From: Treponema sp.
GTDB lineage: Bacteria > Spirochaetota > Spirochaetia > Treponematales > Treponemataceae
Direction of reading: 5' to 3'
DNA length: 64,000 nucleotides
Assembly: GCA_012520945.1 (NCBI GenBank)
Contig: JAAYNH010000029.1
Location: 1-64,000 of the forward strand
Made by a program: the position numbers and the translations under genes
Shown here: positions 14,621 through 39,851 of the stretch, piece by piece
Layout: every line of letters starts with the position of its first letter
How positions within the stretch are numbered: the stretch's first letter is position 1
Notes under the pieces: model-generated
The model's database searches: none
Seen by the model: the letters and a program-made list of their open reading frames with translations, nothing else
What the model was told of the DNA's origin: nothing

Positions 14621-14649
14621 ATTGTAATACTGTTGCAGAAAAAACTCAA
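14621..14649 (-). promoter_or_regulatory. Promoter of murJ (leaderless type)
   Basis: Minus strand: TTGAGT (14644-14649), 17 bp, TACAAT (14621-14626), 8 nt to the murJ ATG. On the plus strand the same region holds TTGCAG (14633-14638), 17 bp, TAATAT (14656-14661), a candidate promoter for the divergent cyclase gene, so the two may compete. Confidence 0.5.
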
Positions 14650-14689
14650 TCATTGTAATATAAGATACAGTATATTTTGGAGATTTTCC

Positions 14690-16375
14690 ATGATTAGAAT
14701 GGCTAAGGTAGGGAATACACGAATAGTTCCAATTGGTACAAAAATTTTGGTGGTTTTTATTTGTTTGCTTTTGCTTTCAAATTTTGCTACAAATTTTATT
14801 AATATACAGATGAATAAAAGACAAACTATTCAATTAACAAATGAAGTTTTAGTTAATCGTCTTAAAGATATTTATTCTAATGCTGTGAATCAATTTGAAA
14901 TATACAAATTTTCGCAAGATGAAAAAAGTGCTATTGACTCTTTAATTGCTACATCAAAGAGAGATTTTAAATATGAAAATTCGTTAGCGTTGGGTGTAAA
15001 ATTTGACGGATCGATTTTTTTTGTGGCAACTGAAAATGAGTACCTTTCAAAGATGCAAGAATTTTCTGACGCAGATGCCCTGCAAAGTTTGAAAACGGAT
15101 TTTGAAAATGGCACTGAAGAAGGTTCTTTACGTTTTAAAACAAAAAAAGGCGAATATCTTTCCGTATATAAATATCATTCTGATTGGAAAGCTTTTTTAA
15201 TTTGTGGAGAATTAATTAGCGACACAACAAAAGAATCTCACAAAGTATTTTTATTGATTTCTATAATTATTATCGTTGTGACATTTGCATTTATGACTGT
15301 GGGAATTTTTATGTTTCGCCATATTTTGCAGTATATCGCTCAAATGACAGAGAGTCTTTACAGTATGCAAGCTTCTCAACGTATGGATTTAATTGATTTA
15401 TCCGGTGCTCCGAATGACGATGTCACATATTTAGGAACATCATTTAATGCACTTTCTGCAACGATAAATAATTTGCTTCATATTTTTCAAAAGTTTGCAA
15501 CAAAGGACGTGGTTGACAAAGCATACAGTGAACGCATAATTAATCTGGAAGGAACGCAAAAAGAATTAACCGTATTATTTTCGGATATTCGCGGTTTTAC
15601 ATATATGACAGAAGTTTTAGGAAATGATATTATTAATTTGCTTAATATTCATTATGACAAAGCAATTCGCAGTGTTCATGAACAAAACGGGATTATCGGT
15701 TCAATTATTGGAGATGCGGTTTTGGCTGTTTTTGGAGCCATTGATTCTATGCAAAATAAATCCGTTGAGGCTGTACGCAGTGCGTGGAATATTATCAAGG
15801 TGACTGAAGAGTTGCGCGAAAAGATGATTGAACGCCGTCAGGAAATAGAACAAAAAAGAAAATTAACAGAGCAAGAGGAAAAAGTATACAAAGCTGTTTT
15901 GCTTGAGGTTGGTGTGGGAATTGACGGCGGTACGGTTTTTTATGGAAATATTGGTTCATCGGAACGCATGACAAATACTGTAATTGGTGATAATGTTAAT
16001 TCATCGGCACGATTGGAAGGTTTGACACGAATTTATTCGTTGCCTGTAATTGTTTCTGAATATGTAAAAAATGAAGTTGAAGAAGTGACTAGTCAATATC
16101 AGTTTTTTGAAATTGATATGGTGCAAGTTAAAGGCAAGACGGAAGGAGTACGTATTTTCTTTCCTATAGATGTCACGGAAAGTGATGAAGAAACAATTTC
16201 AAAATATGAAAAATTTGAGATTGCACTAAAAGCATATTATGAAGGTGATTGGACAAAAGCACGTAGATTGTTTAATGCAACGAAAATGACTGTGGCAAAT
16301 GTATTTTTGGAACGCATGGGCAATAAAAAAGCACCTGAAGATTGGAGTGGTATATGGACAATGACAACAAAATAA
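14690..16375 (+). CDS. Membrane-anchored class III adenylate/guanylate cyclase
   Basis: 561 residues. TM1 (about 17-37), a periplasmic sensor of about 145 residues, TM2 (about 185-209), a HAMP-like linker, then a class III cyclase domain (about 288-480). Catalytic residues are complete: metal Asp D299 (LFSDIRGF) and D342 (IIGDAVLAVFG), transition-state N437 and R441 (GDNVNSSARLEG). A charged helical insertion (about 370-400, rich in E/K/R/Q) interrupts the domain between the second Asp and the GVGIDGG strand. Product is probably cAMP, but purine specificity is inference. GGAG 8 nt before the ATG at 14690 fixes the start, 19 codons inside the longer frame. It overlaps the next gene. Confidence 0.93.
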   Translation: MIRMAKVGNTRIVPIGTKILVVFICLLLLSNFATNFINIQMNKRQTIQLTNEVLVNRLKDIYSNAVNQFEIYKFSQDEKSAIDSLIATSKRDFKYENSLALGVKFDGSIFFVATENEYLSKMQEFSDADALQSLKTDFENGTEEGSLRFKTKKGEYLSVYKYHSDWKAFLICGELISDTTKESHKVFLLISIIIIVVTFAFMTVGIFMFRHILQYIAQMTESLYSMQASQRMDLIDLSGAPNDDVTYLGTSFNALSATINNLLHIFQKFATKDVVDKAYSERIINLEGTQKELTVLFSDIRGFTYMTEVLGNDIINLLNIHYDKAIRSVHEQNGIIGSIIGDAVLAVFGAIDSMQNKSVEAVRSAWNIIKVTEELREKMIERRQEIEQKRKLTEQEEKVYKAVLLEVGVGIDGGTVFYGNIGSSERMTNTVIGDNVNSSARLEGLTRIYSLPVIVSEYVKNEVEEVTSQYQFFEIDMVQVKGKTEGVRIFFPIDVTESDEETISKYEKFEIALKAYYEGDWTKARRLFNATKMTVANVFLERMGNKKAPEDWSGIWTMTTK

Positions 16376-17676
16376 TTATTCAAAAACCGGAAGTTCGTTT
16401 GTTTTTACAAGAAGATGCTCGTGCTGTTATGCGTGAAAAGCCGATAGAATTTAACCTTGAACAAGAATTTGCAAAAACAAAAAAGAACAAAAGTTTATAT
16501 GTTTTGTGGTTAATGCTTGCTTGTTTTGCTGTTGTTGGATTAGCAACATATGGAATAACAAAATGGATTACTTGGCAAAATAAACAGATTGAAGTGTCCA
16601 TTGATGTTTTTGAAGATTTAAATTTAAAAAATCTTTTAAATATGGTAACGCGTACGGAAAATTCATTGAAAACCCTTAGTGCTGAAAAAGCTCGTTATGA
16701 AACAGAATTGAATTCTGAGTTAACGCAAGCGGAAATAAAAAGAGATTCCGATATTCATGCATTGGAATTTATGAAAATGACTAGAAGTGAAAGAAATGCT
16801 CAAATTGAAAAAACTAAAATAAAATATCAAAAAGAAATTGCACAAATTAACGGTAAATATTCTGCACAAATTAAAGAGTTGGAAAGTCAAATAGCAGATT
16901 ATCAAAGACAACTTAATGAGTTAAATAATAATGAGTTGCAAAAAGCACATGAGCAACAAGCGGCTATTGATTCACAAAGAAAAATTTTTGAATTTGAAAA
17001 ACAAAAACTTATTTCGGATTATGAAGCTCAAATTGTAAGTTATCAAAATCAATTGGAATCTTTACAGAAAAATACATACAGAGATCAAAAACGCCGAATA
17101 GATGAAATTTCAAAAAAATATGTTGCTCAAATTAATGCGTTGGATCCAAGTTTTGTAAATGATGAAAAAGGAAAAGCTATTATTGCAAATACAATGTTTG
17201 CAGAAAAAGCTAAATATGATATTAGCGGATATACGGAAGAAAATACACCGGAAGAATTATTGAGTGTCTTGCAAAGTGCAAAAGCTGATTATGATGACAT
17301 TGATTATTTAGCGGGAAAAATACTTGAAGTGCCACATGAAAATTCCGTGCCTCAATATATAAATTCTATGCGTCAATTAGCTTTGTCAGCCGGAAACAAA
17401 TTGACTTATGCGGCAGATTCTTATATTGTATATTTACTTACAAAAGTGAATCAACTGGAAGAGCAACTGGCAATGTTTGTACCTTCAGCAACTGCACCTC
17501 CTAAAGAAGAAACAATAGAAAATGCAACTTTAATCAATGAAGATGTGTCTAAAGATAATGCTGAACAGAAAGTTGCACCTGAATTTGAAAAAAATGACTT
17601 TGAAGAAATCGAACCGGAAAAAACAAAGTCAGATGTAACTGAAAATGTTGAGGCAGTTACGACGGACGTAAAATAA
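16354..17676 (+). CDS. Membrane-anchored coiled-coil protein
   Basis: 440 residues. A 48-residue cytoplasmic head, one membrane segment (YVLWLMLACFAVVGLATYGI, about 48-67), then a long coiled coil (about 95-250) full of Glu, Lys and Gln heptads, a helical domain (about 260-380) and an acidic C-terminal tail. The ATG at 16354 is preceded by GGAG and lies inside the 3' end of the cyclase gene (22-bp overlap), so the two are translationally coupled. It may be a structural or regulatory partner of the cyclase, but nothing in the sequence proves this. No named family recognised. Confidence 0.8.
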   Translation: MDNDNKIIIQKPEVRLFLQEDARAVMREKPIEFNLEQEFAKTKKNKSLYVLWLMLACFAVVGLATYGITKWITWQNKQIEVSIDVFEDLNLKNLLNMVTRTENSLKTLSAEKARYETELNSELTQAEIKRDSDIHALEFMKMTRSERNAQIEKTKIKYQKEIAQINGKYSAQIKELESQIADYQRQLNELNNNELQKAHEQQAAIDSQRKIFEFEKQKLISDYEAQIVSYQNQLESLQKNTYRDQKRRIDEISKKYVAQINALDPSFVNDEKGKAIIANTMFAEKAKYDISGYTEENTPEELLSVLQSAKADYDDIDYLAGKILEVPHENSVPQYINSMRQLALSAGNKLTYAADSYIVYLLTKVNQLEEQLAMFVPSATAPPKEETIENATLINEDVSKDNAEQKVAPEFEKNDFEEIEPEKTKSDVTENVEAVTTDVK

Positions 17677-24767: not shown

Positions 24768-24775
24768 AGATGAAT

Positions 24776-27700
24776 ATGAATAAGATGGGGAAGTTTTTAT
24801 CTTTTATGAATATAGTTAAGTCTCAAAAAATTTTTTTTATTTGTATTTTTTTATTTTGTGTGAATTTCGTTTTTGGCGAAGATTTTACATGGATTTCAAC
24901 AGCAGTAGATTCGGACTGGACTAATGTAAATAACTGGACCGTGGAGGTGGCGGGTAATCCGACTGTGCCATTAAATTATCCGCAATTTGGAGATAGTGTT
25001 CATGTTACTAAACAAACGGAAGGCACAAATTATCCATTGTTAAACCAATATGCTTCTTTAGAAAGTTTGACAGTGGATCCTTTTGCATCAATTTCAGCAC
25101 AGACGACAGAATTTATTGTTGGTTCAATTAGTAATGAAGGCAGTATAATTATTGAATTGGGCAGTGAACTAAAATTTGCTTCTTATACCGGAATGGGCGT
25201 TCTTGAGCTAAATGATTCAATGTTAACGCTAAATTCAAATAATGATTCGATAATTGAAAATCTTAATAGTATAACAGAAAATACAATACAAATTGATTTA
25301 TTATATGAGTCGAATTTGACTTTTAATTCTATTTCTGCAGATAATTTAATTCTTAATGCCGGAAATGGTAGCATAGAAGTTTTATCGGCTACATATTCTA
25401 ATTCAAATTTATATGCTAGTGGTATGGTAACAGTTGTTGGTGGAAATAATATGCAAAATCTTGAAACTGTTGCAGGTTCAGGGAAACCAACAAATTTAAC
25501 TATTACCGATGATGCAACTGTGCAAAAAATAATAATTGGTGTCGATACAAAATTTTCAGTTGCAAACAATAGTACAATTAACTTAAACGGTAATTGGGTA
25601 GATAATAATACAAGTGGCGGATTTATTGCAAATGATTCAACTATAAATATTATTAACGATGTTACTGTTTCCGGAAAATCAACATTTCATAATGTTACAA
25701 TTTCGCCTGCAAATAAAATGATTGTTGCTTCCGGTAGTGCAATTGAAATTTCAAACACATTTACAAACAATGGTGATTTTATTATAAATGATGCAACTGT
25801 TACTTTTAATTTAGGTGTAGTAATTAATTCCGGCACAACCTTTTCTGCAACAAATTCTATTCTTAATTTTAACAATGATTTAACTTTGGCAAATAATGCG
25901 GCAACATTAGGTTCAAATAATAAATATAATTGTTTTGGAGATGTTACTGTTAATGCTAATGCAACTATTCCAGCAACAAATGATTTTATTTTAGAAAGTA
26001 ATTTTATTAGTTATTCAACAAATGTTGGTTCTTTATCTTTTTTATTTAACGGAAATTCAGATCAAGTTTTTGAATATCCTGCAGTTTATGTTGCAAGTGA
26101 TTTTAATGTTGATAAAAGTAACGGAACGTTTACTTGTACAAATGGATTAACTGTTCAAAGTACCGATGTAACGTTTAATGCAACTAAAATTATTTTTGGA
26201 GATAATACTTTTACATTTGCAGATAAATTAACATTGTCATGTGATGTTTTAGATACAACAGCACAAATAAATTTAACAACGATAGATTTTACATGTGCGA
26301 CAATTAATTTTTCAGGAGAGCTGTCTTGTGATGAAATTATTTTTAACGATTTAACAAATTTTAATACTAATGGAATTATTAATTGTGCAACAATAACTCT
26401 TGACGGACAAACAAATATTAAATCAACGAGTTTATCTTTTAAAAAAGATACGGTTTTTGGCGGAACATCTTCAAGTGTGTTAAATGTTGAAGGTCCTTTT
26501 GACATGACAACATATGAATTAAGTTTTGAAACTATTAGTGCAAATTTTTTAGCTTCAGAAATTTTTTGTAATGGTTTTTCAGTTGGTGACAGTGCAACAA
26601 TAAATTTTTCAGATGATGCAAGTATGACACAAAATATAACATCTGATTTTCAGGTTTTAACAAATGGACAAGTTAACGTAGGTTCAGGAAAATTTGTTTT
26701 AGGAAATTTAGCGGTTGCGAACGGCGGAAGTTTTGAACAAACGGGTGTTAATGGTGCACTGATAGAACAAAGTTTTGTGTCATTGCTTGCAAACGGAAGT
26801 GTTGTTTGGGATTCAACAAGTCAAGGCGGAACCTTGATTATCGGTGGTGATGTAACGGGAAGTGAAGCTGAAAATGTTTTTTTTAATTTGAAAAATGTTG
26901 CTTTATCGAACGATGCTATTTTAAGAGGTGTCTTTTATGATTTGATAATTCCTGCAAGCATAACATTAACGAATGGTAGTAAAATAACTGTACGAAGAAA
27001 CTTTACAATAGAAAAAACGGGAAAATATATTCATAATAATTTAGAAATAGTATTCGGTTCTCATTTGACAAATCCAAATTTTAAAAGTGCATTAACCGGA
27101 AATATTACTGATAATAATGTATTAAAAAATAATTTAGGCTCAGTAATTGTTAATGCAGGTTCAGTAGTAGGTGTAGAAAAAATATTTTCTTCGGAAATTT
27201 TAACGAATGATTTAACAGTAAATAATGATACAACTTTACATGTAACAAATTTTAATTTAACATGTGAAGGTGACGTTATTAATAATGGAACTTTGATTTT
27301 AGGAAACAGTATAATTTATTTTAAAAAAGATTTTAAGCTTTTAGAAAGTTCAAGTTTTACTTGTGGAACAAGTACATTACAATTTGATGGAACCGTAGAT
27401 CAAAATTTTTATGCCGGTGCGAAAAATATTTATAATTTAAATATTTATAAGGTAACAGGAAATTTTTTTGCAACTGAAAGTTTTACTGTGCTTAATGATT
27501 CTAATTTAAACTGTGCTACATTAACTTTTGGTGATAATGAAAGTGATGAATTTATTTTTGAAAAAGGAATTACTCACAATATTGATAATGCACAATTAAA
27601 TTTAGTTGGGTTAATGCAAACTAATAATGCAAACATAACTGTCAATAAAATAAATTTAACAGGAGATTCTGTTATTGACACAGGAAGTAATAATGGAAGT

Positions 27701-30700
27701 ATTTCAATTGCGTCAGTTGTCGGTAATAATAATAATCTGAAATTATGTTCAGGAAGTGATAACATAAATGTTTCTAGTGATGTTACAAGTATTAATATAT
27801 TAACAATAAATGATATAACATCAACCGGTAGAGCTATATTTTCCGGTAAGACTAATTTACAAGAATTAATTACTTTTGGCGCAACCTTCAGTATTTCATT
27901 TTTAGATGATGTAACAATTCAGAATGCTGTTGTTATGAATTGTCATAATTTAATATTAGGAAATTCAGAAAGTCAAAAATTTAATTTTAAAAATGGATTT
28001 ACTCAAAATGCAGTAAGTTCACAATTAGATTTAGTTGGGTTAATGCAAACTAATAATGCAAACATAACTGTCAATAAAATAAATTTAACAGGACACTCTG
28101 TTATTGACACAGGAAGTAATAATGGAAGTATTTCAATTGCGTCAGTTGACGGTAATAATAAAAATCTAAAATTATGTTCAGGAAGTGATGACATAAATAT
28201 TTCTAGTGATGTTACAAGTATTAATATATTAACATTAGAAGAAGATGAAATCACTTCAACGGGAAATATTTTATTTACAGGAAATTTAACGGCTACACAA
28301 ATAATAACGTTTCCACAAAATTATAAAATAACATTTTTAGCAAATGATAATAATTCAGGGATAGTAAATGTAACAGGAGATGCTATTACAGATTTTAAAA
28401 ATCTTGGAGGAATACAACTTGGAGATAATGAAAATGATATTTTTAATTTTACAAATGGAATTACACATTTAAATGATGACTTAATAATTGCAGGGACAAT
28501 TAATGTAGAAATAAACGATATTAATTTTTCAAAATGTGAATTAATAGAACATTCTGTAATTAATAATATTAATGGAAATTTTATTTTAGACGGGAAGTTA
28601 ACCGGAGATAAAAATCTATCAATTTCTTCTTTTATTAATCACATTAATGGAGATATTACTGTCTATAATTTAGAAATTAATTCAACGACCACAAATTTAA
28701 ATGGAAATATTGAAGTAAATAATTTAAATACTAACAGTAATGTCATTTTAATAAAAGATATCACTGTCTTAGCACAAGATTCAATTGAACTTTCTGTTGG
28801 TAAAAATATTAACGGTACTGTAGATAAGATGCAAGGATTAGAAGTTACGTATTTTGATTCTCTTGAATTTGGAACAGTTGGTTCGTCTGTTCAGTTAAAA
28901 TTTTTACGTATTAATTCAACATCAACGAAAGATTTAACATTACCACAAGTCGATGTTGATGATTTACAAATAATTGCATCCGGTAATGTTATTCAAAGTG
29001 GAGCATTGAAAGGTAAAAATCTTTTTGTTAAAACAAAAAATGATTTAGGAAAAAATATTATTTTAGAAAATGTTTTAAATGATTATGATAATTGTATTTT
29101 TGCAACACGTAACTTGAGTGACACACTAGATGTTGTAGCGATTATTTCATATGCAGATTTAGATGATGTAAATTTTAGCAATACAGCTTTTACAGAAGAA
29201 AATGCAGGAATAAGAACAAAAGGAAAAACAATTTTAAATTGTGGTTTAAAGACTTCCCCTGTAATTCAAGTTGGAAAAATTATAACAAATGACTTACTTC
29301 TTCTAGGTAAAGGTTCGTATAAATTAACAAACTTGGAAAATAATATTAAAAATTTTGCATCCGATGTTGAAAATGAAATTGAAATAGTGCATATAGGAAC
29401 AATGAATGTTTCTTCTTTACAAAACACAAGTGCACAATCTTACAGTGGTGTACTTTGTGCAAAAATTATTTTTGGAGATACTTCTTTAAGTTCATCAACA
29501 TTAAATTTGGAACAACCTATTCAAACATCTGTTTCAGATATAAGATTTAATAATAATATAACAGCAAACACAGATATTAATGTTGATGCAGAGAATAAAA
29601 TAATTTTTGCTCCTAATTTACAAATAAGCATTAATGGTAATGCAAACTTTATTGCAAAAACAATGGAAGCACTAAGTAATGTTACTTTTTCCATAACACA
29701 AAATGTTTTATTTAGTTGTGAAATTAATGTTACGAATGTTGAAAATGTTAGTGCGAATTTGATTCAGTTTGAAAAAAATAATAGTGCAGAAGAAATTAAT
29801 TTGCATGGTAATACTGAGCTTGTTAATTCTGTTATATTTACGGCAATAACAACAAATGTTCATGGTGATATTAAAGGTGAGTTATTGACTGTAAATAGTG
29901 ATTTGAATTTTATAACAAATGAAATTAATGTAGATTCAGTTTTAAATATGAAAAAAAATATTAATTCATATGTTATAGTAAATTTTAATAATGACATAAT
30001 TTTTGATTGTGATTCAGATGAACAAAAATTTATTACAAATTCTGATTTAATTTTTGGAGCATCATCTGATCAAACGATTACTATTAAAAATAATGCTAAG
30101 TTATTAATTGAATCAGTTAGTGAATTGGTTTCGCCAAAAATAATTTGGAAAGGAAAAACAAATTCTATTAATGATTTAACTGTAAATAACTACGGTTTAT
30201 TTATAACATATGAAGATGCAGATTTTGTTTTTTTAAATAATGCAAGTTTTAAGCAAATTGGAACGGGAGATGTTCAAGTTGCAGGAAGTTTTGAAACTAC
30301 ATATTCTTCAAGCGGACAAATAATTTTTGAAAATGATATTTATGTTTATGGTGATGGTGGCTCAGATTCAAAAATTATTTTTGGCGGTGGCACAGGACCA
30401 CTTGGCGAATATGCAGTAATATTTAATAAAAATGTTTTTGCAAACACAACTGATACTGATGGTAAGAAAAAAATAGTAATTGCTTCACCAACAAAAATTA
30501 ATAATAACTTTTCTATGTTTAAGGGAACTCTTTCTTTTTTAGATACTGCCACAGTTGTACCTTCATTAATTGTTGGTGAAGATTTAATTTTGCTTAATGG
30601 AGAAAGCTCTCTTATGTATGAAGATTCTGAAAGTTCTGTTTCAGATTTATATTCATATTTAAATACTCAAAGAAACGATGTTGTTGCAAAACCTTCTTTG

Positions 30701-33700
30701 CAAAATTTTCCAACAACACTTCCTGATGGTACTGTTATTGACCATGATAAATATTTTTCGTTTATAGATTTAATAACATTAAGCTCAAAAACAATTATTG
30801 TTGGAAAAAATTTTTATGCAAATGGAATAGATTTTTCTGCAGTTGCACCTTGGAAATTGCAAATACCTAACAATGATTTAGCATTATCTGCATTTGCAGA
30901 AGCATATAATTGTATTTTCAAAAATACTAATGTTATCTGTTCTGTACCTGGTGGTCATGCCTTTGTTGCTGCCGGCGAAAAATGTATTAACTCTGGAAAT
31001 AATTCCGGAATTAGTTTTATACAGACTACATTCAAGGACGATTTTGTTTACACAGTATATGATGATACAATTTATGTAGAGTTTACAAATAAAATTGAAA
31101 ATTCAAATAATGAAATTTCAAAAGCCCTATCGAATATTAAGTTTAACAATGGCGAAATTTCTTTTAGTGGTGCTTTTATTGATCCGGATTGTATTACTTC
31201 AACAGACGGAAAAGGAGATTTAGAAAATTTTTATTTGCGTACAAGCGGTTTTGCAAATGAAAGATGGAACACAGATGCAAACGGTTTGTCAGTGGGAGAT
31301 GTTTCATCTGAAACAAAGTCAACAGACAGAGGACGTCCCGGTGAAGTTGCTCAAACAAGAAATATTATTCCAAATGTCGAAATGCCAAAAGCGTTAAATA
31401 ATTTATATGAATGTTTACGCGATGAGTATAAAAATAGAGTTAAACATTACTTTGGAGAATCTTTGCGTTACACAAATGTATTGGATAAATGTTCTCCTGT
31501 TTTAGTAGAAGTTTTTTCAGGACAAGAGTTGCATTATACCCATGACGGAATTACCGAAACATCACAAAAAAAATATGATTCACATAATTTTATTGAATTG
31601 AGATATTCTGAAAAGGTTATAATTGGAAATGCAACTGATGCTATTTCAGAAAATATTCAAGAATCGAATTTCTTCGATGGGAATTCCACTTTTGGTGGTA
31701 AAATTTTAAATAATGAAAATGGTATATCTATTTTAAATTATTTACAAATTGAAAATGGAAAACTTTCAACAGGTTCAAAAATTTTCGGCCAAAACGTAAA
31801 CTCTCTTTATAGAACATTTTCTTTAGATGGGAAAATTGAAAATGAAATTTATCAGACAAAACGAATACGTTTTGGTATTGCTTCTTATGTTGATGGAACA
31901 ATTACTGTAAACGGTAAAACGTTTTATAAGTGGAATGGATATATTAATTCAAATGATTCTGTTTCTCCAAGTGGAAATGTTTTTCCAATTGCAAATGATA
32001 ATGTTAGAGATTCCAATGGAAATATATTAGATATTGCTTTACCTTCTGAATTATTAAATCATAAATTACCACAGTTAGTTTTAAATAATTCAATTAAGGC
32101 AGGTTTTGTTTATGGTTCTTGGGATTTAAGTGCTCCTGTTTTCTCAAAGTATCTTAATGCAGATAAATGGAGCGACATTGAAAATTGGAAAGACGTTGTC
32201 GCTCATGAAATTCTTGGCGTTGATACGGATGATGATACTCGCGTAAATATTTTAGAAATGCACTTTCATGATAATACTCCGACTTATACTAGCGATGATG
32301 TATTTCATTGGGTATCAAAACGCGGTTGGGTTTCAAAATTAGGCACTGATAAACAAGTTGCAAAAGATATATCCGGAGGCTCAAGAGCTTTTATAGATGA
32401 AGGAAATATTACTGAAGAAAATAAAACCAGTGGAGGTTTACGTTTTTCATCATTAGTAAATTCAGTTAGTGCATTTGCATATGCAAACAATACTGAAGGA
32501 TATGATTCTACAATAAAAAAATTTGATGAAACATATTTTTCTCAAACTGTATCAATTGATTCCTTTTTTGGAGAAACAACTTCTTCACCTGATTCTGATA
32601 GTTTGTATTTATCTCTTTCATTTTTATCTCAGGATAATAAATTATTCCCTTTGCAAAACTGTTTCGATTTAACTTATGATGATAGTCAAGGATTTATAAC
32701 AGATTTGGCGGGAAATAAAATGCTTAGTCAAACATTAAAATCTATTGACAGAACTCCGCCTAAGTTTTTGTTCACTCTTGCACCTGTTGATTCAAACAAA
32801 TTGCATCTTGTTTTTACAAAGCAATTAAGAACAAAACCGGAAGATTTAATTGAAATTCCAAATCAAATTGAACTTGTAAATAAAGATGGTAGTTTAGCAG
32901 ATGTTCAAATAGATGTATCTGTTCCTGCATTTGTCTTAAAAGATACAAAATATGGAACGGAATTAGTTTTAACTTTAACTGAAAATGTTCAGTTTAATGA
33001 TTTGCTTTCTTTGCGTGTTCGTGTGAAACAACCTCAAAACCAAACAGTTGACCCTTTTACAGGAAAGCAAGCGTATATTACAAAAATTGTTGATAATGGT
33101 GTTGAAGAAAACTACATGGTACACCACACGGCACACACGTTAAGTGATTTTGGCATTAATGTAATTAATGTTCTTCATGCATATGACGGACGCCTTGATG
33201 ATGAAAACGATGATAGTATTTTATCTTCTGTATCTAAGGATGGAGTAAATTTCATTCTTCGTGATTTTACGGGAAATGATTCTGTTCAAGGCAGAATGTT
33301 GACTGAAAAAGATATTACGGTTGTAACAACTGTAAATGAACAAGCCACAAAAAATATCATTATGCATATTGATAGTTTTGCAAAAAATAATGAACCTGAT
33401 GCAAGTGAAGTTTCTTCACGCTATAATGAAAACACAAACAGCAATTCGCGTGTTTGGCTTCCAACAGAATATAAGTCTTTTACAGAAAAAGCTCACAGCG
33501 GCTCAAAAACTTTGTTTCATGATATTGCTGAAGAACAAATGCAACGTTCATTTACAATTCCAAATGATCCGAATAATGTAAATTGTTTTAATTGGCCTAA
33601 AGGAAATGATGTTCAGTTTTTATTTGAATATGAAGATAAAATTGACCATGATGCAGATCCTTTAACAGAAGATGTTCCATTATATTTATTACGTCAAATA

Positions 33701-34066
33701 GATAAAAATGACGCAGATGAATCTCGCAACACAGAGTTTGATTTATGGTCATTTAAATTAGAAGATCTTTCTAGGCAACGTGGAGGAACAACAATTTTAA
33801 ATAATGTAATTAATGTTTCAAATGGTGAAGAAACAATTTTAGAAGTAGATATGCATATTAAAGGTAAACTTATAGTACAAGTTTTAACTCTAGATGGAAA
33901 TGTTGTTAAGATTTTAGAAAATAAAACCGTTGAAACCGGATTGCATTATTATAAATGGAATGGCACAAATAAAGCCGGAAGTCCGGTTTCGCGTGGCATT
34001 TATTTTATTAGAGTCGTTGGTCCGGGAATTGATGAAACAAGAAAAGTTTTGGCAATAAAAGACTAG
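24776..34066 (+). CDS. Giant exported beta-solenoid-like protein with FlgD-like C-terminal domain
   Basis: 3096 residues. An N-terminal signal segment (IFFICIFLFCVNFVFG) is followed by a motif WISTAVDSDWTNVNNWT common at the start of large surface proteins. Residues about 60-2050 are repetitive, Asn/Thr/Ser-rich short strands with very few charged or aromatic residues, as in right-handed beta-helix adhesins. One part carries units of about 143 residues with LxxGDNESDxFxFxxGIT. The remaining third is more globular and includes Ig-like segments (RTPPKFLFTLAPVD, followed by HLVFTKQL). The last 75 residues match the FlgD Ig-like fold (VVKILENKTVETGLHYYKWNG, shown in part). Likely surface-exposed or secreted; no catalytic motif or autotransporter barrel is visible. 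Confidence 0.85.
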   Translation: MNKMGKFLSFMNIVKSQKIFFICIFLFCVNFVFGEDFTWISTAVDSDWTNVNNWTVEVAGNPTVPLNYPQFGDSVHVTKQTEGTNYPLLNQYASLESLTVDPFASISAQTTEFIVGSISNEGSIIIELGSELKFASYTGMGVLELNDSMLTLNSNNDSIIENLNSITENTIQIDLLYESNLTFNSISADNLILNAGNGSIEVLSATYSNSNLYASGMVTVVGGNNMQNLETVAGSGKPTNLTITDDATVQKIIIGVDTKFSVANNSTINLNGNWVDNNTSGGFIANDSTINIINDVTVSGKSTFHNVTISPANKMIVASGSAIEISNTFTNNGDFIINDATVTFNLGVVINSGTTFSATNSILNFNNDLTLANNAATLGSNNKYNCFGDVTVNANATIPATNDFILESNFISYSTNVGSLSFLFNGNSDQVFEYPAVYVASDFNVDKSNGTFTCTNGLTVQSTDVTFNATKIIFGDNTFTFADKLTLSCDVLDTTAQINLTTIDFTCATINFSGELSCDEIIFNDLTNFNTNGIINCATITLDGQTNIKSTSLSFKKDTVFGGTSSSVLNVEGPFDMTTYELSFETISANFLASEIFCNGFSVGDSATINFSDDASMTQNITSDFQVLTNGQVNVGSGKFVLGNLAVANGGSFEQTGVNGALIEQSFVSLLANGSVVWDSTSQGGTLIIGGDVTGSEAENVFFNLKNVALSNDAILRGVFYDLIIPASITLTNGSKITVRRNFTIEKTGKYIHNNLEIVFGSHLTNPNFKSALTGNITDNNVLKNNLGSVIVNAGSVVGVEKIFSSEILTNDLTVNNDTTLHVTNFNLTCEGDVINNGTLILGNSIIYFKKDFKLLESSSFTCGTSTLQFDGTVDQNFYAGAKNIYNLNIYKVTGNFFATESFTVLNDSNLNCATLTFGDNESDEFIFEKGITHNIDNAQLNLVGLMQTNNANITVNKINLTGDSVIDTGSNNGSISIASVVGNNNNLKLCSGSDNINVSSDVTSINILTINDITSTGRAIFSGKTNLQELITFGATFSISFLDDVTIQNAVVMNCHNLILGNSESQKFNFKNGFTQNAVSSQLDLVGLMQTNNANITVNKINLTGHSVIDTGSNNGSISIASVDGNNKNLKLCSGSDDINISSDVTSINILTLEEDEITSTGNILFTGNLTATQIITFPQNYKITFLANDNNSGIVNVTGDAITDFKNLGGIQLGDNENDIFNFTNGITHLNDDLIIAGTINVEINDINFSKCELIEHSVINNINGNFILDGKLTGDKNLSISSFINHINGDITVYNLEINSTTTNLNGNIEVNNLNTNSNVILIKDITVLAQDSIELSVGKNINGTVDKMQGLEVTYFDSLEFGTVGSSVQLKFLRINSTSTKDLTLPQVDVDDLQIIASGNVIQSGALKGKNLFVKTKNDLGKNIILENVLNDYDNCIFATRNLSDTLDVVAIISYADLDDVNFSNTAFTEENAGIRTKGKTILNCGLKTSPVIQVGKIITNDLLLLGKGSYKLTNLENNIKNFASDVENEIEIVHIGTMNVSSLQNTSAQSYSGVLCAKIIFGDTSLSSSTLNLEQPIQTSVSDIRFNNNITANTDINVDAENKIIFAPNLQISINGNANFIAKTMEALSNVTFSITQNVLFSCEINVTNVENVSANLIQFEKNNSAEEINLHGNTELVNSVIFTAITTNVHGDIKGELLTVNSDLNFITNEINVDSVLNMKKNINSYVIVNFNNDIIFDCDSDEQKFITNSDLIFGASSDQTITIKNNAKLLIESVSELVSPKIIWKGKTNSINDLTVNNYGLFITYEDADFVFLNNASFKQIGTGDVQVAGSFETTYSSSGQIIFENDIYVYGDGGSDSKIIFGGGTGPLGEYAVIFNKNVFANTTDTDGKKKIVIASPTKINNNFSMFKGTLSFLDTATVVPSLIVGEDLILLNGESSLMYEDSESSVSDLYSYLNTQRNDVVAKPSLQNFPTTLPDGTVIDHDKYFSFIDLITLSSKTIIVGKNFYANGIDFSAVAPWKLQIPNNDLALSAFAEAYNCIFKNTNVICSVPGGHAFVAAGEKCINSGNNSGISFIQTTFKDDFVYTVYDDTIYVEFTNKIENSNNEISKALSNIKFNNGEISFSGAFIDPDCITSTDGKGDLENFYLRTSGFANERWNTDANGLSVGDVSSETKSTDRGRPGEVAQTRNIIPNVEMPKALNNLYECLRDEYKNRVKHYFGESLRYTNVLDKCSPVLVEVFSGQELHYTHDGITETSQKKYDSHNFIELRYSEKVIIGNATDAISENIQESNFFDGNSTFGGKILNNENGISILNYLQIENGKLSTGSKIFGQNVNSLYRTFSLDGKIENEIYQTKRIRFGIASYVDGTITVNGKTFYKWNGYINSNDSVSPSGNVFPIANDNVRDSNGNILDIALPSELLNHKLPQLVLNNSIKAGFVYGSWDLSAPVFSKYLNADKWSDIENWKDVVAHEILGVDTDDDTRVNILEMHFHDNTPTYTSDDVFHWVSKRGWVSKLGTDKQVAKDISGGSRAFIDEGNITEENKTSGGLRFSSLVNSVSAFAYANNTEGYDSTIKKFDETYFSQTVSIDSFFGETTSSPDSDSLYLSLSFLSQDNKLFPLQNCFDLTYDDSQGFITDLAGNKMLSQTLKSIDRTPPKFLFTLAPVDSNKLHLVFTKQLRTKPEDLIEIPNQIELVNKDGSLADVQIDVSVPAFVLKDTKYGTELVLTLTENVQFNDLLSLRVRVKQPQNQTVDPFTGKQAYITKIVDNGVEENYMVHHTAHTLSDFGINVINVLHAYDGRLDDENDDSILSSVSKDGVNFILRDFTGNDSVQGRMLTEKDITVVTTVNEQATKNIIMHIDSFAKNNEPDASEVSSRYNENTNSNSRVWLPTEYKSFTEKAHSGSKTLFHDIAEEQMQRSFTIPNDPNNVNCFNWPKGNDVQFLFEYEDKIDHDADPLTEDVPLYLLRQIDKNDADESRNTEFDLWSFKLEDLSRQRGGTTILNNVINVSNGEETILEVDMHIKGKLIVQVLTLDGNVVKILENKTVETGLHYYKWNGTNKAGSPVSRGIYFIRVVGPGIDETRKVLAIKD
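27592..27805 (+). repeat. Direct repeat, copy 1 (giant protein gene)
   Basis: 214 bp that recurs at 28021-28234 with about 8 mismatches. The offset is 429 bp = 143 codons, so the frame is kept. Flanking sequence of the same 143-codon unit is much more diverged. Confidence 0.95.
28021..28234 (+). repeat. Direct repeat, copy 2 (giant protein gene)
   Basis: Second copy of the 214-bp repeat at 27592-27805. It encodes LVGLMQTNNANITVNKINLT and the segment after it. Confidence 0.95.
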
Positions 34067-35503: not shown

Positions 35504-36031
35504 CTATTTTTTAGGTAAAACAACCCTTCCATCCATAGAACGAACAAACCATTCAACATCGGCATCCTTTGGAACAATAATTTCCAAGTCTGCAGTATAT
35601 TCATAGTTTAAATTTGTATACATTGTATCAATTGCTAATTTACCATTTGTTAAGCGACATGGAGTGTGTGCACTTAAGGCATTTAAAAGACTTCTTGTTT
35701 TTTCTCTACTGTCAGTCCAAACCTTATAGCGAATAATAACTTTTGCATACATTGGTTCATCTTTTGAGTAAATAATTTTTTTAGTGCTTAAGTTAGCAGG
35801 ACGAGGAACATTTTTTTTTGCTTTGCAAATAATGTCACCTGAAGATGTAATTGCTTCAACAAAAAACAATTTTGTTGTCTGAAAATCAAATGAAACTTCT
35901 TTTGTAGCAGAATATTTATTCGCTTTGTTAAAAGGCCTTGCCTGTTTTTTTGTTGCACTTGCACATGAGATTAATGAAAACATTATCATTAGTATAGTTA
36001 TGATAAACAATAATGTTTTATTTTTATTCAT
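35504..36031 (-). CDS. Predicted lipoprotein of unknown function
   Basis: 175 residues. The signal peptide MNKNKTLLFIITILMIMFSL runs into the lipobox ISC. The mature part contains DGDV-like strands (YEYTADLEIIVPKDADVEWF) and ends in VVLPKK. The ATG at 36031 lies inside the last codons of the upstream cyclase gene (8-bp overlap), so it is translated by coupling and belongs to the same operon. This hints at a periplasmic accessory role for the cyclase sensor, which is inference only. No family recognised. Confidence 0.75.
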   Translation of the reverse strand: MNKNKTLLFIITILMIMFSLISCASATKKQARPFNKANKYSATKEVSFDFQTTKLFFVEAITSSGDIICKAKKNVPRPANLSTKKIIYSKDEPMYAKVIIRYKVWTDSREKTRSLLNALSAHTPCRLTNGKLAIDTMYTNLNYEYTADLEIIVPKDADVEWFVRSMDGRVVLPKK

Positions 36032-39000
36032 ATAATTCTTCAATAGCATATAGTTTCTCCTTTATCTTGTACTTATCGGAAATTATTTGAGAATCAAGCT
36101 CAGTATAAGTATAGCGCATATTTTCATTTTTCCATGTATTTTTTGCACTTTCACTAACAATTATCGGCTTATCAAATATTTTTGTCAAGGTTTCTATTGT
36201 TATTACAGTATCTATATCAGGTGAAACACTAATTTCATTCATGCGTTCATCATTTCCAACTGTTCCTAGAACAACAGTACCATAATGTAAACCTATTCCA
36301 ATTTTCAATATAGGTTTGTTTTCTTCTATTAATTCTTTGCGTAATTTAATCATTTCTTTATGCATTTCAATTGCACAAAGAGCTGCTTGTTCTCCATCTT
36401 TTGGAAACAAGGCAATGATTCCGTCACCAAGATATTTTTCAATAAATCCGAAATGGCTACGAATGATTGGAGCAACACGTGTTAAATATCTATTTAATAA
36501 ATCAAATGTATCTTTTGCAGAAATTGACTCAGAAATTTCGGTAAAGTTTCTAATATCTGTATTCATTAATGTCATGGAACGAGTTGTTTTTTCGCCTAGC
36601 TTCAAAGATGTAATGTCGGAAATTTCAAAAAACTGCAAAACTTCTTGAGGAACAAATCTATAACATGCATTTATTGTTTCAGTTAATTCATCGGTTATGT
36701 TGTTAATTTCTTCTTGTTGTTGAATGTGTTGTCTTGCCATGATAGCACTTTGGATTAATACAAAAACGATGAAACCATATGGCAAAAGCTCCGTCTTAAT
36801 TGCTACTTTAATTGCAGATAGATACATTATGTCATGTATGGAACATAGCAAAGTTACAAAAACGCTTACACTCATTAAAAGAGAAATGTGAGAACGATGA
36901 GTAAAACTTCTTTGTAATAGTTTTATAACAATCGTGATGGATGTAAGAACTAAATAAATTTGCCATGGACGTACCATGTAAGAGCGGATTCGTACCGGAA
37001 AGAAAATTCCAAAAACACTTAATATAATTCCTATAAGGATAAAAAATTTTGGTATATTTTTATATTTATCGGTAAACAAATCCGGATATAAACTTGTAAC
37101 AAATAGCACAAATAATAACGGACCAAAAAACAAAGCTTCATGTTCTAATAATACAAGTAAACTGAATGGAATATTTGGAAAATAAAAAGCAAGTAAAGAA
37201 AAACCTGAAGAAAGTATACGAAGTAAAATGGAAAAAGAAAATAATGATAAATATAAACTGGATTTATTGCTTTTTCTAAAGAAAAATAAAGATAGTTGAT
37301 AAAAAAAGATTATAAACAAAGCTCCAATAAATAAAAAACTTTGATAAAATGAACGGAAAAAGTCTTTTTGTAAAAGGGGTTTTTCTTTTAGTGTGACATC
37401 TTTCCAAATGCCTCCAATACGATAGTCTTTGTTTGAAACATGAAAAACAATTTCTAAAATACCATCTTTATCACTAAAAAAAGTTGGGCTTTCCATGCTT
37501 TTTTTTGGAACGGTTTTTTCCCAGTTTTCATTTGCTTCTCCAACTTTAGCAACGAGTTGTCCATTTACATACATATTAAAAGCCGTTAGAACTAAGTCAT
37601 ATAGAAAGATACCGTATTCTTTGTTTGGTTTTAGGTTTTCAACTTTAATTCGATACGTTGCAGAGCCTTGTCCTTTTTTTGCAATTTTCTTGTCTGTGCT
37701 TTTCAATTCATAGTTATTCCAAAAACTTGGTGTATAAACAATGCAATCGGCTTCTGTTTCCGGTTTACAACAAGGATCAATAAATTTTCCCCAGTAAAAT
37801 TCCCAAGGACCGTCAATATTAATTCCGCTGTTAATAGTTTCATTGTAGTTTTGTACGGAAAATGTTTGTGCTTTTAACGGCAAGTTTATAAAAAGACAAA
37901 GTAATAAGGAAATCCATGCAGTTAATGCAAGCGGTTGTTTTTTACCTTTAACATTAATATTACCTAAAGGCTGCACGGTATATTTACTTGATGTTTTTTG
38001 TGTAATTCTGTCTGAAGCACATTGTGATAAAACAACACTTTGATTAATTTGTATGGCTGTATTTTCTATGCGAGAAACAGTATTTACAGTGTCGGAAATT
38101 ACGGTATCATCTAAGCGATTTGGCTCACCAATTGTTCCTAAAATCATTTTCCCGTAATGTACTCCTGTTGTTGCAAAAAGCATATAATTAGAATCTTTTT
38201 TTGTTTTATTAAATTTGTCAACTCCATCTTTAATTGCTGAAGCAAAATTTAGTGCATCATCTGCACAATATGGAAACAATGCAATAAAACCCGATGAAAC
38301 AAATTTACTTATAAAACCATTGTGAGCTTTCGTTAAAGAAGCAATGCTTTTTAAAAATTCACTGATTATTGTGTAATGATTATCTAAAGGCATTTTTTGT
38401 TCACCACTTTGTATAATATGTAAATTGGTATATGTAATTGTCATTTCAGTTTCAACAAAGTCACCGGGATTAACGTCTATAACCGAATCTTTTTTTAATA
38501 TTTGCAAAAATTCTTTTGGCACATATCGTAAATAACTTTTGTTTAATTTTGAAAGATTTTTGTTTAGTTTAACAGCTTCAATATACATATTATTTTCATT
38601 TTTTGAAAGCAACAAAAATTGAAAAATTGAGAAAAACAACATTGAAAAAGGTAACATTGCAAAAGGTAAAATTCCTTTTTTGAAAACAAATAAAAGGTCA
38701 AATGCTAAACCTGTTCCTGTGATTATCATATTTATAAGGTGAGGATATGCGGCTTTATGTTTTTTAAAAACTAAATATGTTACTACAAAAACTACGTATA
38801 AGAGACATATAATAGTACAAAGTTGTAAAATAGGCACGCATTTGTTTGCAATCCGTATTGGTAATATTAAAGAAATAATACCTATGATAACGTTTAAGCT
38901 AATTACAAAATAACCTACTTTTGGAGCAATCATATTTTTTTTGAATTCTGCATTTAAAATTAAAATAAAAAGAGACGGCCCCATCCATAAAGAAATATAT

Positions 39001-39812
39001 TCAAGTTTTAACTGTAATCCGTATGGAATGTTAGGACATATTAATGTTAAAATACTAAAATTTGCAATTATGACACGAAGAGCTAAAACAGAACAAAACA
39101 AGCCTAGCCAAAGAGGTGATAAGTTTTTGCGATTTAAAAAGTATAAAATTATGTTGAAAAGTGCTAAAAAGATTAAAATGCCAAATATAAGAAAAAGAAT
39201 ACCTGCTTGTGTGGAATAAAAATGAAACAAGGTTTTTTCTTCTGCAATTAAAACAGAATCCCATAAACCTCCTTTTCTATGTGTACCATTTGCAACTTGA
39301 ATAACAATTTCTGCAACACCATTATCATCTGAAGAAAATTCTACATAACAGGGAATAGCTTGTGGTTTAGCAAGTCTATAATCTTCATTAACAATACCTG
39401 TTTCATGTAATTGTTTTCCGTTGACAAACCATTTAGATGAAGTTCCCGGACTTTCGCGTGTCATAAGTGCATATGGAAAATTCGGTTTTAAGTTAGCTAC
39501 AAGCAATCTGTAAGTTCCAATGCCAAAACTTGTTTTTTTGCCGTCAATTTCCGGTAAACGTTCTTTCCAATAATTTGGCACATATATGAAAGCATCAGGT
39601 TCCATTCGTTCAAAACTAAAAGAATTGAGTGTATATGCAGTTTGAATGTGGCGATTTAGATAGAGTTCCCAGTCGCCATTTAAGGAATAAACGTTTTGTT
39701 CAAGAACACTTGGGTCTTCAAAATAGGCTATACCTTTTACGACTTTAATACTAACACCGAATAGGGATGTAGATGATATTATGATTAAAATAAAACAAAA
39801 AATTTTTTTCAC
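36024..39812 (-). CDS. Tandem 7TMR-DISM adenylate cyclase with two complementary half-sites
   Basis: 1262 residues from a GTG start. First half: signal peptide (1-19), periplasmic jelly roll of the 7TMR-DISMED2 type (about 33-193), seven membrane segments (about 203-403), class III cyclase domain C1 (about 445-625). One extra membrane segment (about 628-648, WISLLLCLFINLPLKA) returns the chain outside. Second half: jelly roll (about 655-813), seven membrane segments (about 823-1026), cyclase domain C2 (about 1073-1262). C1 lacks both metal Asp (N463 in TYTNLHI, S507 in KFVSSGF) but has N577 and R581 (SDTVNTVSRIE). C2 has D1086 (NTDIRNF) and D1130 (YLGDGIIALFP) but D1201 and T1205 replace Asn and Arg. 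Together they make one composite site. TATAAT lies 9 nt before the GTG. Confidence 0.92.
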   Translation of the reverse strand: MKKIFCFILIIISSTSLFGVSIKVVKGIAYFEDPSVLEQNVYSLNGDWELYLNRHIQTAYTLNSFSFERMEPDAFIYVPNYWKERLPEIDGKKTSFGIGTYRLLVANLKPNFPYALMTRESPGTSSKWFVNGKQLHETGIVNEDYRLAKPQAIPCYVEFSSDDNGVAEIVIQVANGTHRKGGLWDSVLIAEEKTLFHFYSTQAGILFLIFGILIFLALFNIILYFLNRKNLSPLWLGLFCSVLALRVIIANFSILTLICPNIPYGLQLKLEYISLWMGPSLFILILNAEFKKNMIAPKVGYFVISLNVIIGIISLILPIRIANKCVPILQLCTIICLLYVVFVVTYLVFKKHKAAYPHLINMIITGTGLAFDLLFVFKKGILPFAMLPFSMLFFSIFQFLLLSKNENNMYIEAVKLNKNLSKLNKSYLRYVPKEFLQILKKDSVIDVNPGDFVETEMTITYTNLHIIQSGEQKMPLDNHYTIISEFLKSIASLTKAHNGFISKFVSSGFIALFPYCADDALNFASAIKDGVDKFNKTKKDSNYMLFATTGVHYGKMILGTIGEPNRLDDTVISDTVNTVSRIENTAIQINQSVVLSQCASDRITQKTSSKYTVQPLGNINVKGKKQPLALTAWISLLLCLFINLPLKAQTFSVQNYNETINSGINIDGPWEFYWGKFIDPCCKPETEADCIVYTPSFWNNYELKSTDKKIAKKGQGSATYRIKVENLKPNKEYGIFLYDLVLTAFNMYVNGQLVAKVGEANENWEKTVPKKSMESPTFFSDKDGILEIVFHVSNKDYRIGGIWKDVTLKEKPLLQKDFFRSFYQSFLFIGALFIIFFYQLSLFFFRKSNKSSLYLSLFSFSILLRILSSGFSLLAFYFPNIPFSLLVLLEHEALFFGPLLFVLFVTSLYPDLFTDKYKNIPKFFILIGIILSVFGIFFPVRIRSYMVRPWQIYLVLTSITIVIKLLQRSFTHRSHISLLMSVSVFVTLLCSIHDIMYLSAIKVAIKTELLPYGFIVFVLIQSAIMARQHIQQQEEINNITDELTETINACYRFVPQEVLQFFEISDITSLKLGEKTTRSMTLMNTDIRNFTEISESISAKDTFDLLNRYLTRVAPIIRSHFGFIEKYLGDGIIALFPKDGEQAALCAIEMHKEMIKLRKELIEENKPILKIGIGLHYGTVVLGTVGNDERMNEISVSPDIDTVITIETLTKIFDKPIIVSESAKNTWKNENMRYTYTELDSQIISDKYKIKEKLYAIEELYE

Positions 39813-39821
39813 AGTATATTC

Positions 39822-39851
39822 ATTATAACACATAAATATATATTATGTTAA
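39822..39851 (-). promoter_or_regulatory. Promoter of the tandem cyclase gene
   Basis: Minus strand: TTAACA (39846-39851), 18 bp, TATAAT (39822-39827), 9 nt to the GTG start. The -35 lies inside the first unit of a 12-bp tandem repeat. Confidence 0.55.

Follow-up and report, generated by a model that had tools for sequence, protein, structure and literature searches.

The 64,000-nucleotide stretch of DNA analysed here (the window; Treponema sp., contig JAAYNH010000029.1, positions 1 to 64,000) contains a 1262-codon minus-strand frame at 36024-39812 in which two modules, each a 7TMR-DISM receptor followed by a class III cyclase domain (C1 in the first, C2 in the second), are joined in one chain. 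The product is probably a (pseudo-)heterodimeric receptor with a single catalytic site that would synthesize cyclic AMP (cAMP) and would have arisen by duplication, reciprocal degeneration and gene fusion. The residues, their recurrence, the phylogeny, the state of fusion and the junction are observed directly; the dimer geometry, the single live site, the cAMP product and the transmission of the signal are the parts of this reading that we infer. The evidence that carries it is the division of the catalytic residues between the two domains: the full set (two Asp, Lys, Thr, Asn, and Arg) exists only as D1086 and D1130 of C2 combined with K503, T570, N577, and R581 of C1, and the same split recurs in most of the related gene pairs.

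Class III cyclases act at dimer interfaces. In the mechanism proposed for the window protein, the beta-rich domain and the seven-helix bundle of each module would together detect a signal in the periplasm, and long helices would relay the movement to C1 and C2, which are predicted to pair head to tail within the molecule. The live site would take its two metal Asp from C2 and the purine-binding Lys/Thr, the Asn and the Arg from C1, and the other interface site would be dead. The product would be cAMP made from ATP, as is expected because the purine pair is Lys/Thr; the source genome also encodes several cyclic nucleotide monophosphate-binding proteins. The two modules differ strongly (~26% identity), and given this divergence the integration of two different signals may be envisaged, speculatively. 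The gene would go back to an intact receptor cyclase, single-copy and presumably homodimeric, that was duplicated in tandem; the two copies would have lost opposite half-sites before they were joined, and the in-frame fusion would have come late.

Modules and catalytic residues of the fused protein

The features of the gene were assigned as follows.

39822..39851, minus strand: promoter-like TTAACA-18-TATAAT immediately before the GTG start (consensus match)
36024..39812, minus strand: fused gene, two 7TMR-DISM/class III cyclase modules (open frame, Pfam; the frame extends to ATG 39833)
39240..39752, minus strand: module 1 periplasmic beta-rich domain, after the signal peptide (model strands; no Pfam family above cut-off)
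38532..39239, minus strand: module 1 seven-helix region, whose final helix continues as a signalling helix (PF07695, model)
37914..38513, minus strand: cyclase domain C1, substrate half (alignment, profile)
37869..37925, minus strand: fusion junction and internal signal-peptide-like helix (junction comparison with relatives)
37383..37868, minus strand: module 2 periplasmic beta-rich domain (model; weak Glyco_hydro_2_N)
36663..37382, minus strand: module 2 seven-helix region (PF07695, model)
36048..36644, minus strand: cyclase domain C2, metal half (Pfam, alignment, profile)

The original prediction of two full modules in one frame was borne out by the open frame and by Pfam, which placed both 7TMR-DISM_7TM (PF07695; 97 bits against a cut-off of 29, whole-protein E 1.7e-27) and Guanylate_cyc (PF00211) on two stretches above cut-off. 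In the AlphaFold 2 model, each module has seven helices, the last of which is continuous with the long helix leading to the cyclase, and both periplasmic domains are beta-rich. The predicted make-up of the modules thus stood for the membrane and cyclase parts, while the jelly-roll identity of the periplasmic domains is plausible, not proven: no Pfam family, jelly-roll families included, reached the cut-off for these domains, the top match being Glyco_hydro_2_N (E 0.027). As beta-rich domains with no Pfam match above cut-off, they are at most candidates for the DISMED1/DISMED2 domain of 7TMR-DISM receptors.

The longest open frame begins at ATG 39833 (36024-39833, minus strand, 1269 codons), but GTG 39812 appears to be the better start because the signal peptide, (M)KKIFCFILIIISS, begins there and because the promoter match (11 of 12 positions, 39851-39822, minus strand) overlaps the upstream ATG. 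Promoter-like consensus matches numbered 27 in the region, which is about the chance expectation and no commoner than in shuffles. These two points agree with the start and the residue numbers given originally, which are used throughout; numbering from the ATG would add 7.

The catalytic positions were read in the order metal 1, purine Lys, metal 2, purine 2, Asn, Arg. By alignment, the pattern was N-K-S-T-N-R in C1 and D-K-D-I-D-T in C2, and all eight residues named beforehand (N463, S507, N577, R581, D1086, D1130, D1201, and T1205) were as had been described. C1 keeps K503, T570, N577, and R581 and has N463 and S507 in place of both metal Asp; C2 keeps D1086 and D1130, with K1126 present, and has I1194, D1201, and T1205 in place of Thr, Asn, and Arg. 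At the second interface site, everything is lost except the C2 Lys, and on these alignments exactly one live site is predicted. T570 of C1 stands where class IIIb cyclases have Thr or Ser instead of the purine-binding Asp. The codons, all placed by alignment, are as follows.

38424..38426, minus strand: N463, metal Asp 1 position, lost
38304..38306, minus strand: K503, purine-binding Lys, kept
38292..38294, minus strand: S507, metal Asp 2 position, lost
38103..38105, minus strand: T570, second purine residue (class IIIb Thr), kept
38082..38084, minus strand: N577, transition-state Asn, kept
38070..38072, minus strand: R581, transition-state Arg, kept
36555..36557, minus strand: D1086, metal Asp 1, kept
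36423..36425, minus strand: D1130, metal Asp 2, kept
36210..36212, minus strand: D1201, Asn position, lost
36198..36200, minus strand: T1205, Arg position, lost

The profile of each half was searched against all PDB chains. The substrate-half profile matched C2 of AC9, AC5, AC2 (type II), and soluble adenylyl cyclase (sAC; residues 292-419) together with the beta subunit of soluble guanylyl cyclase (sGC), and the metal-half profile matched C1 of AC5, AC8, AC9, VC1, and sAC (43-183), with sGC alpha as the better-matched sGC subunit; CyaB, bPAC, CyaC, and Cya2 were also among the matches. Displacement of the catalytic residues was ruled out, as no shifted Asp or Asn/Arg was found in the profile alignments to solved cyclases. 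The degenerate positions are real, in line with the original description: in neither domain did these alignments reveal an intact Asp, Asn, or Arg elsewhere.

Related pairs and their history

The search covered 60 relatives, 274 genomes of the family (Treponemataceae), and 294 genomes of the order, and DNA was fetched for the best places. In the alignments used, one row (L130) bridges the two genes of an in-frame pair, its stop being read through for alignment purposes only. With one neighbouring cyclase of a different type left out, the count came to 53 pairs (tandem or fused), of which 40 were complementary, 13 had both sites dead, and none was intact in both halves; the complementary pattern is thus conserved in homologues, as had been anticipated. 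The stand-alone homologues were all intact (19/19, D-K-D-(T/S)-N-R), as were the best class III cyclases from elsewhere in the order and phylum (22/22), and the order-wide search gave one match per genome in genomes outside the family. The pattern is judged not to be chance because the six composite-site residues all survive in the window protein, whose nearest relatives are just ~38-41% identical, and because the same split recurs in the 40 pairs.

The pairs belong to two lineages, (i), which is the window's own, and (ii), with substrate halves denoted A and metal halves denoted B. Thr, Asn, and Arg were invariant in 22/22 A(i) halves, and both Asp were present in 21/21 B(i) halves. Motif conservation was 64% for the metal motifs versus 83% for the substrate motif in A(i), 87% versus 61% in B(i), and 78% and 75%, respectively, in the singles; this reciprocal conservation is the signature of a single shared site under selection. 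The second purine residue was Thr in 22/22 A(i), 14/14 A(ii), and 18/19 singles, with Ser in the remaining single. In both lineages, the first gene is usually the one without metal residues and the second the one without Asn/Arg. Complementary pairs in reversed gene order, with the metal half first as in mammals, were found in a lineage (i) subclade (L091, L093, and L116), and 12 of the 13 dead pairs lie in the same subclade, again with the metal-half-derived gene first. The dead pairs (L095-L098, L101-L103, L107, L108, L111, L119, L120, and L124) are candidate pseudo-cyclase receptor pairs. At one locus (L109:6435-8999, genome G076), the complementary pair is preceded, at a distance of 141 bases, by a third class III cyclase gene that seems to be intact. 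The metal-half gene of another pair (L044:3211-4557) is shortened at its 5' end, with an open frame of 448 aa and one in-frame TAG reported by the search, which suggests decay or a sequencing error.

The history of the pairs was examined with an IQ-TREE tree of 48 rows under a mixture model. A(i) and B(i) formed one clade (100/100), and A(ii) and B(ii) were placed among single-copy, intact enzymes from a different family (100/99). A clade of A(i) with A(ii) and a clade of B(i) with B(ii) were both rejected by approximately unbiased (AU) tests (p=1.1e-4 and p=1.2e-55, respectively), and a tree of the receptor part only gave the same grouping. One common origin of all complementary pairs was rejected on the AU tests and the receptor-only tree. 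The trees point to two or more origins of the complementary split, unless an older, single origin has been masked by gene conversion between the tandem copies.

Nearly all pairs are two separate genes, mostly overlapping, typically by 4 bases, and the only fused ones among the 53 are those of the window and of genome G028, a complete single-contig genome. Complementation preceded fusion, and the system is mostly one of two genes. The ancestral type is likely to have been a single-copy seven-transmembrane (7TM) receptor with an intact cyclase (DKDTNR). The claim of descent from a duplicated homodimeric enzyme is thus supported as to duplication, because intact single-copy homologues and tandem gene pairs exist; it needs amending in that the halves became complementary before fusion and mostly as two genes.

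The fused frame and alternative readings

At the window junction, the tail of the first gene, the ribosome-binding site, and the Met-Lys/Arg start are all gone, and an internal signal-peptide-like helix, LTAWISLLLCLFINLPLKA, lies there; in G028, the start codon is still in frame and the stop alone is gone. The two fusions look like independent events because the junctions differ and because G009, a congener of G028, is unfused. In the unfused relatives, the second gene starts with a signal peptide. The internal helix of the window protein would bring the chain back to the periplasm; this agrees with the topology, with or without cleavage of the helix.

Several observations weigh against a single chain with one live site. 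The fused frame contains an internal signal-peptide-like segment that is possibly cleaved, and one base fewer in the run of five T at 37890-37894 (minus strand) would yield two overlapping frames. The full-length model is of moderate confidence (predicted local distance difference test [pLDDT] 68, predicted TM-score [pTM] 0.58), and a model lacking the membrane part of module 1 left C1 unpacked on C2 (pTM 0.44, TM-score on AC9 0.20-0.22). Finally, the 13 related pairs that have lost both sites indicate that degenerate pairs are tolerated.

The first alternative is that an error of one base in the T run, made in assembly or sequencing, created the fusion and that the window really holds two overlapping complementary genes. 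The genome assembly consists of 119 contigs, and one T fewer would open an ATG frame (MDFLITLSF...) that overlaps the end of the first gene. However, the relatives that were inspected keep a Met-Lys/Arg-type start, and three of them (L039, L123, and L130) also have a GGAG-type ribosome-binding site; in the window, no ribosome-binding site precedes that ATG and the N terminus would be acidic, as fits a fusion by deletion. The presence of the second fused frame in a single-contig genome also speaks against a frameshift or assembly error, and we consider an artefact very unlikely.

A second alternative, which is rather unlikely but carries more weight than the artefact, is that the frame encodes a polyprotein, signal peptidase cutting the internal helix (after residue ~640), so that the working heterodimer would consist of two chains, as it would in the unfused relatives. 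A hydrophobic core is still present at the junction, together with a cleavage-like site (LKA-Q); the second gene of those relatives begins with a signal peptide, and processed polyproteins are known from bacteria (Bradyrhizobium fbcH). The positively charged n-region of the signal peptide, however, is gone in the window, and the hydrophobic segment comes after a folded cytoplasmic domain.

The structure models bear on whether the composite site forms within one chain. The best PDB matches of the full-length model were the membrane cyclases AC9, AC8, and AC5, with a query TM-score of 0.27-0.32 versus ~0.14 for a single cyclase domain, which would agree with a simultaneous superposition of the two cyclase domains. 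The C1-C2 interface is unproven, the two models disagreeing on packing. If the second model, in which no same-chain C1-C2 pairing is seen, were followed, C1 of one chain could complement C2 of another in a domain-swapped dimer. This is improbable, since the chain order of the full-length model is like that of membrane adenylyl cyclases, its matches to which reach about twice the single-domain TM-score, and since C1 and C2 of mammalian cyclases pair within a chain.

Equally improbable is that the window protein is a pseudo-cyclase, a fused receptor that is losing or has already lost catalysis and has a binding or regulatory role. The double loss in other pairs of the family and the long branches of both window halves would fit such a protein, but the window protein retains all six composite-site residues although its nearest relatives share ~40% identity with it overall, and no motifs in the lineage are better conserved than those that it retains. 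A fused receptor cyclase with one live site is the preferred reading.

The neighbourhood gave no hint of the signal: no conserved neighbourhood was found, only the ankyrin gene among five window neighbours being matched, in one relative, and the flanking genes of pairs differ between relatives. A 181-aa lipoprotein-like open reading frame (ORF; 35504-36049, minus strand) overlaps the 3' end of the fused gene and has no Pfam match and no homologue beside related pairs. The window also contains a repetitive, secreted-protein-like ORF of 3098 aa (24770-34066, plus strand) and another class III cyclase gene (14633-17676, plus strand; match at 15536-16144).

Relation to known cyclases

Bacterial class III cyclases have been described as homodimers and the eukaryotic enzymes as pseudo-heterodimers, homodimerisation being called a fundamental difference (PMC4821796). 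In line with the original remark that no described bacterial 7TMR-DISM example was known, no bacterial pseudo-heterodimeric class III cyclase was found in the open-access literature searched. For the mammalian adenylyl cyclases, duplication and fusion have been placed in an early eukaryote (PMC9552081). The claim that the domain order is the reverse of the mammalian one holds, C1 being the substrate half and C2 the metal half; the order itself, however, is already known from alveolate guanylyl cyclases (PMC6592433). In these ATPase-guanylyl cyclases of Toxoplasma and Plasmodium, the first domain carries the nucleotide and transition-state residues and the second both Asp, the same inverted order as in the window protein (PMC6592433), but they are eukaryotic, form cGMP, and have a P4-ATPase-like domain attached.

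The mammalian transmembrane adenylyl cyclases (tmACs; ADCY1-9, class IIIa) are alike in that two membrane and two cyclase domains alternate along a single polypeptide, in that one interface site is complete and the other degenerate, and in their origin by duplication and fusion (PMC9552081); in its predicted mode of action, the window protein would be their bacterial parallel. They differ in having 6TM membrane domains, the metal half first, and a Lys/Asp purine pair, whereas the protein described here has 7TMR-DISM and periplasmic domains, the substrate half first, and Lys/Thr; it is also bacterial, its fusion is recent, and most of its relatives are unfused. The window protein is not a member of the class IIIa tmAC family because of the reversed order, the Lys/Thr pair, and the 7TMR-DISM domains.

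Human sAC (ADCY10, class IIIb) has the closest residue set, and both profiles match its expected halves. Its composite site takes Lys/Thr, Asn, and Arg from one domain and the two Asp from the other. It keeps an Arg in its bicarbonate site, where the window protein has Thr at the same position. Unlike the window protein, sAC is soluble, has no 7TM receptor, and has the reversed domain order. The alpha and beta subunits of sGC are the products of two genes and together have an active and a degenerate site, the arrangement also predicted for the unfused relatives, A mapping to beta and B to alpha, but sGC is a eukaryotic, cGMP-forming heme sensor of NO, unlike the spirochaete pairs. The bacterial homodimeric receptor cyclases (Rv1625c/Cya and the 7TMR-DISM singles) have two identical active sites and no division of labour.

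A wider reading is possible and is advanced tentatively. The route taken by animal adenylyl cyclases may have been repeated at least twice in one bacterial family, with the intermediates surviving as singles, two-gene obligate heterodimers, two single-chain fusions, and all-dead pairs; the halves would form an asymmetric receptor in which two different periplasmic signals are integrated at one site and the dead site serves as a regulatory pocket. Every stage of this series is present in one bacterial family, where reciprocal degeneration has two or more independent origins and fusion has occurred twice. Bacterial proteins thereby give direct experimental access to the order of the steps (complementation, then fusion), to what the dead site does, and to what is gained by an asymmetric receptor.

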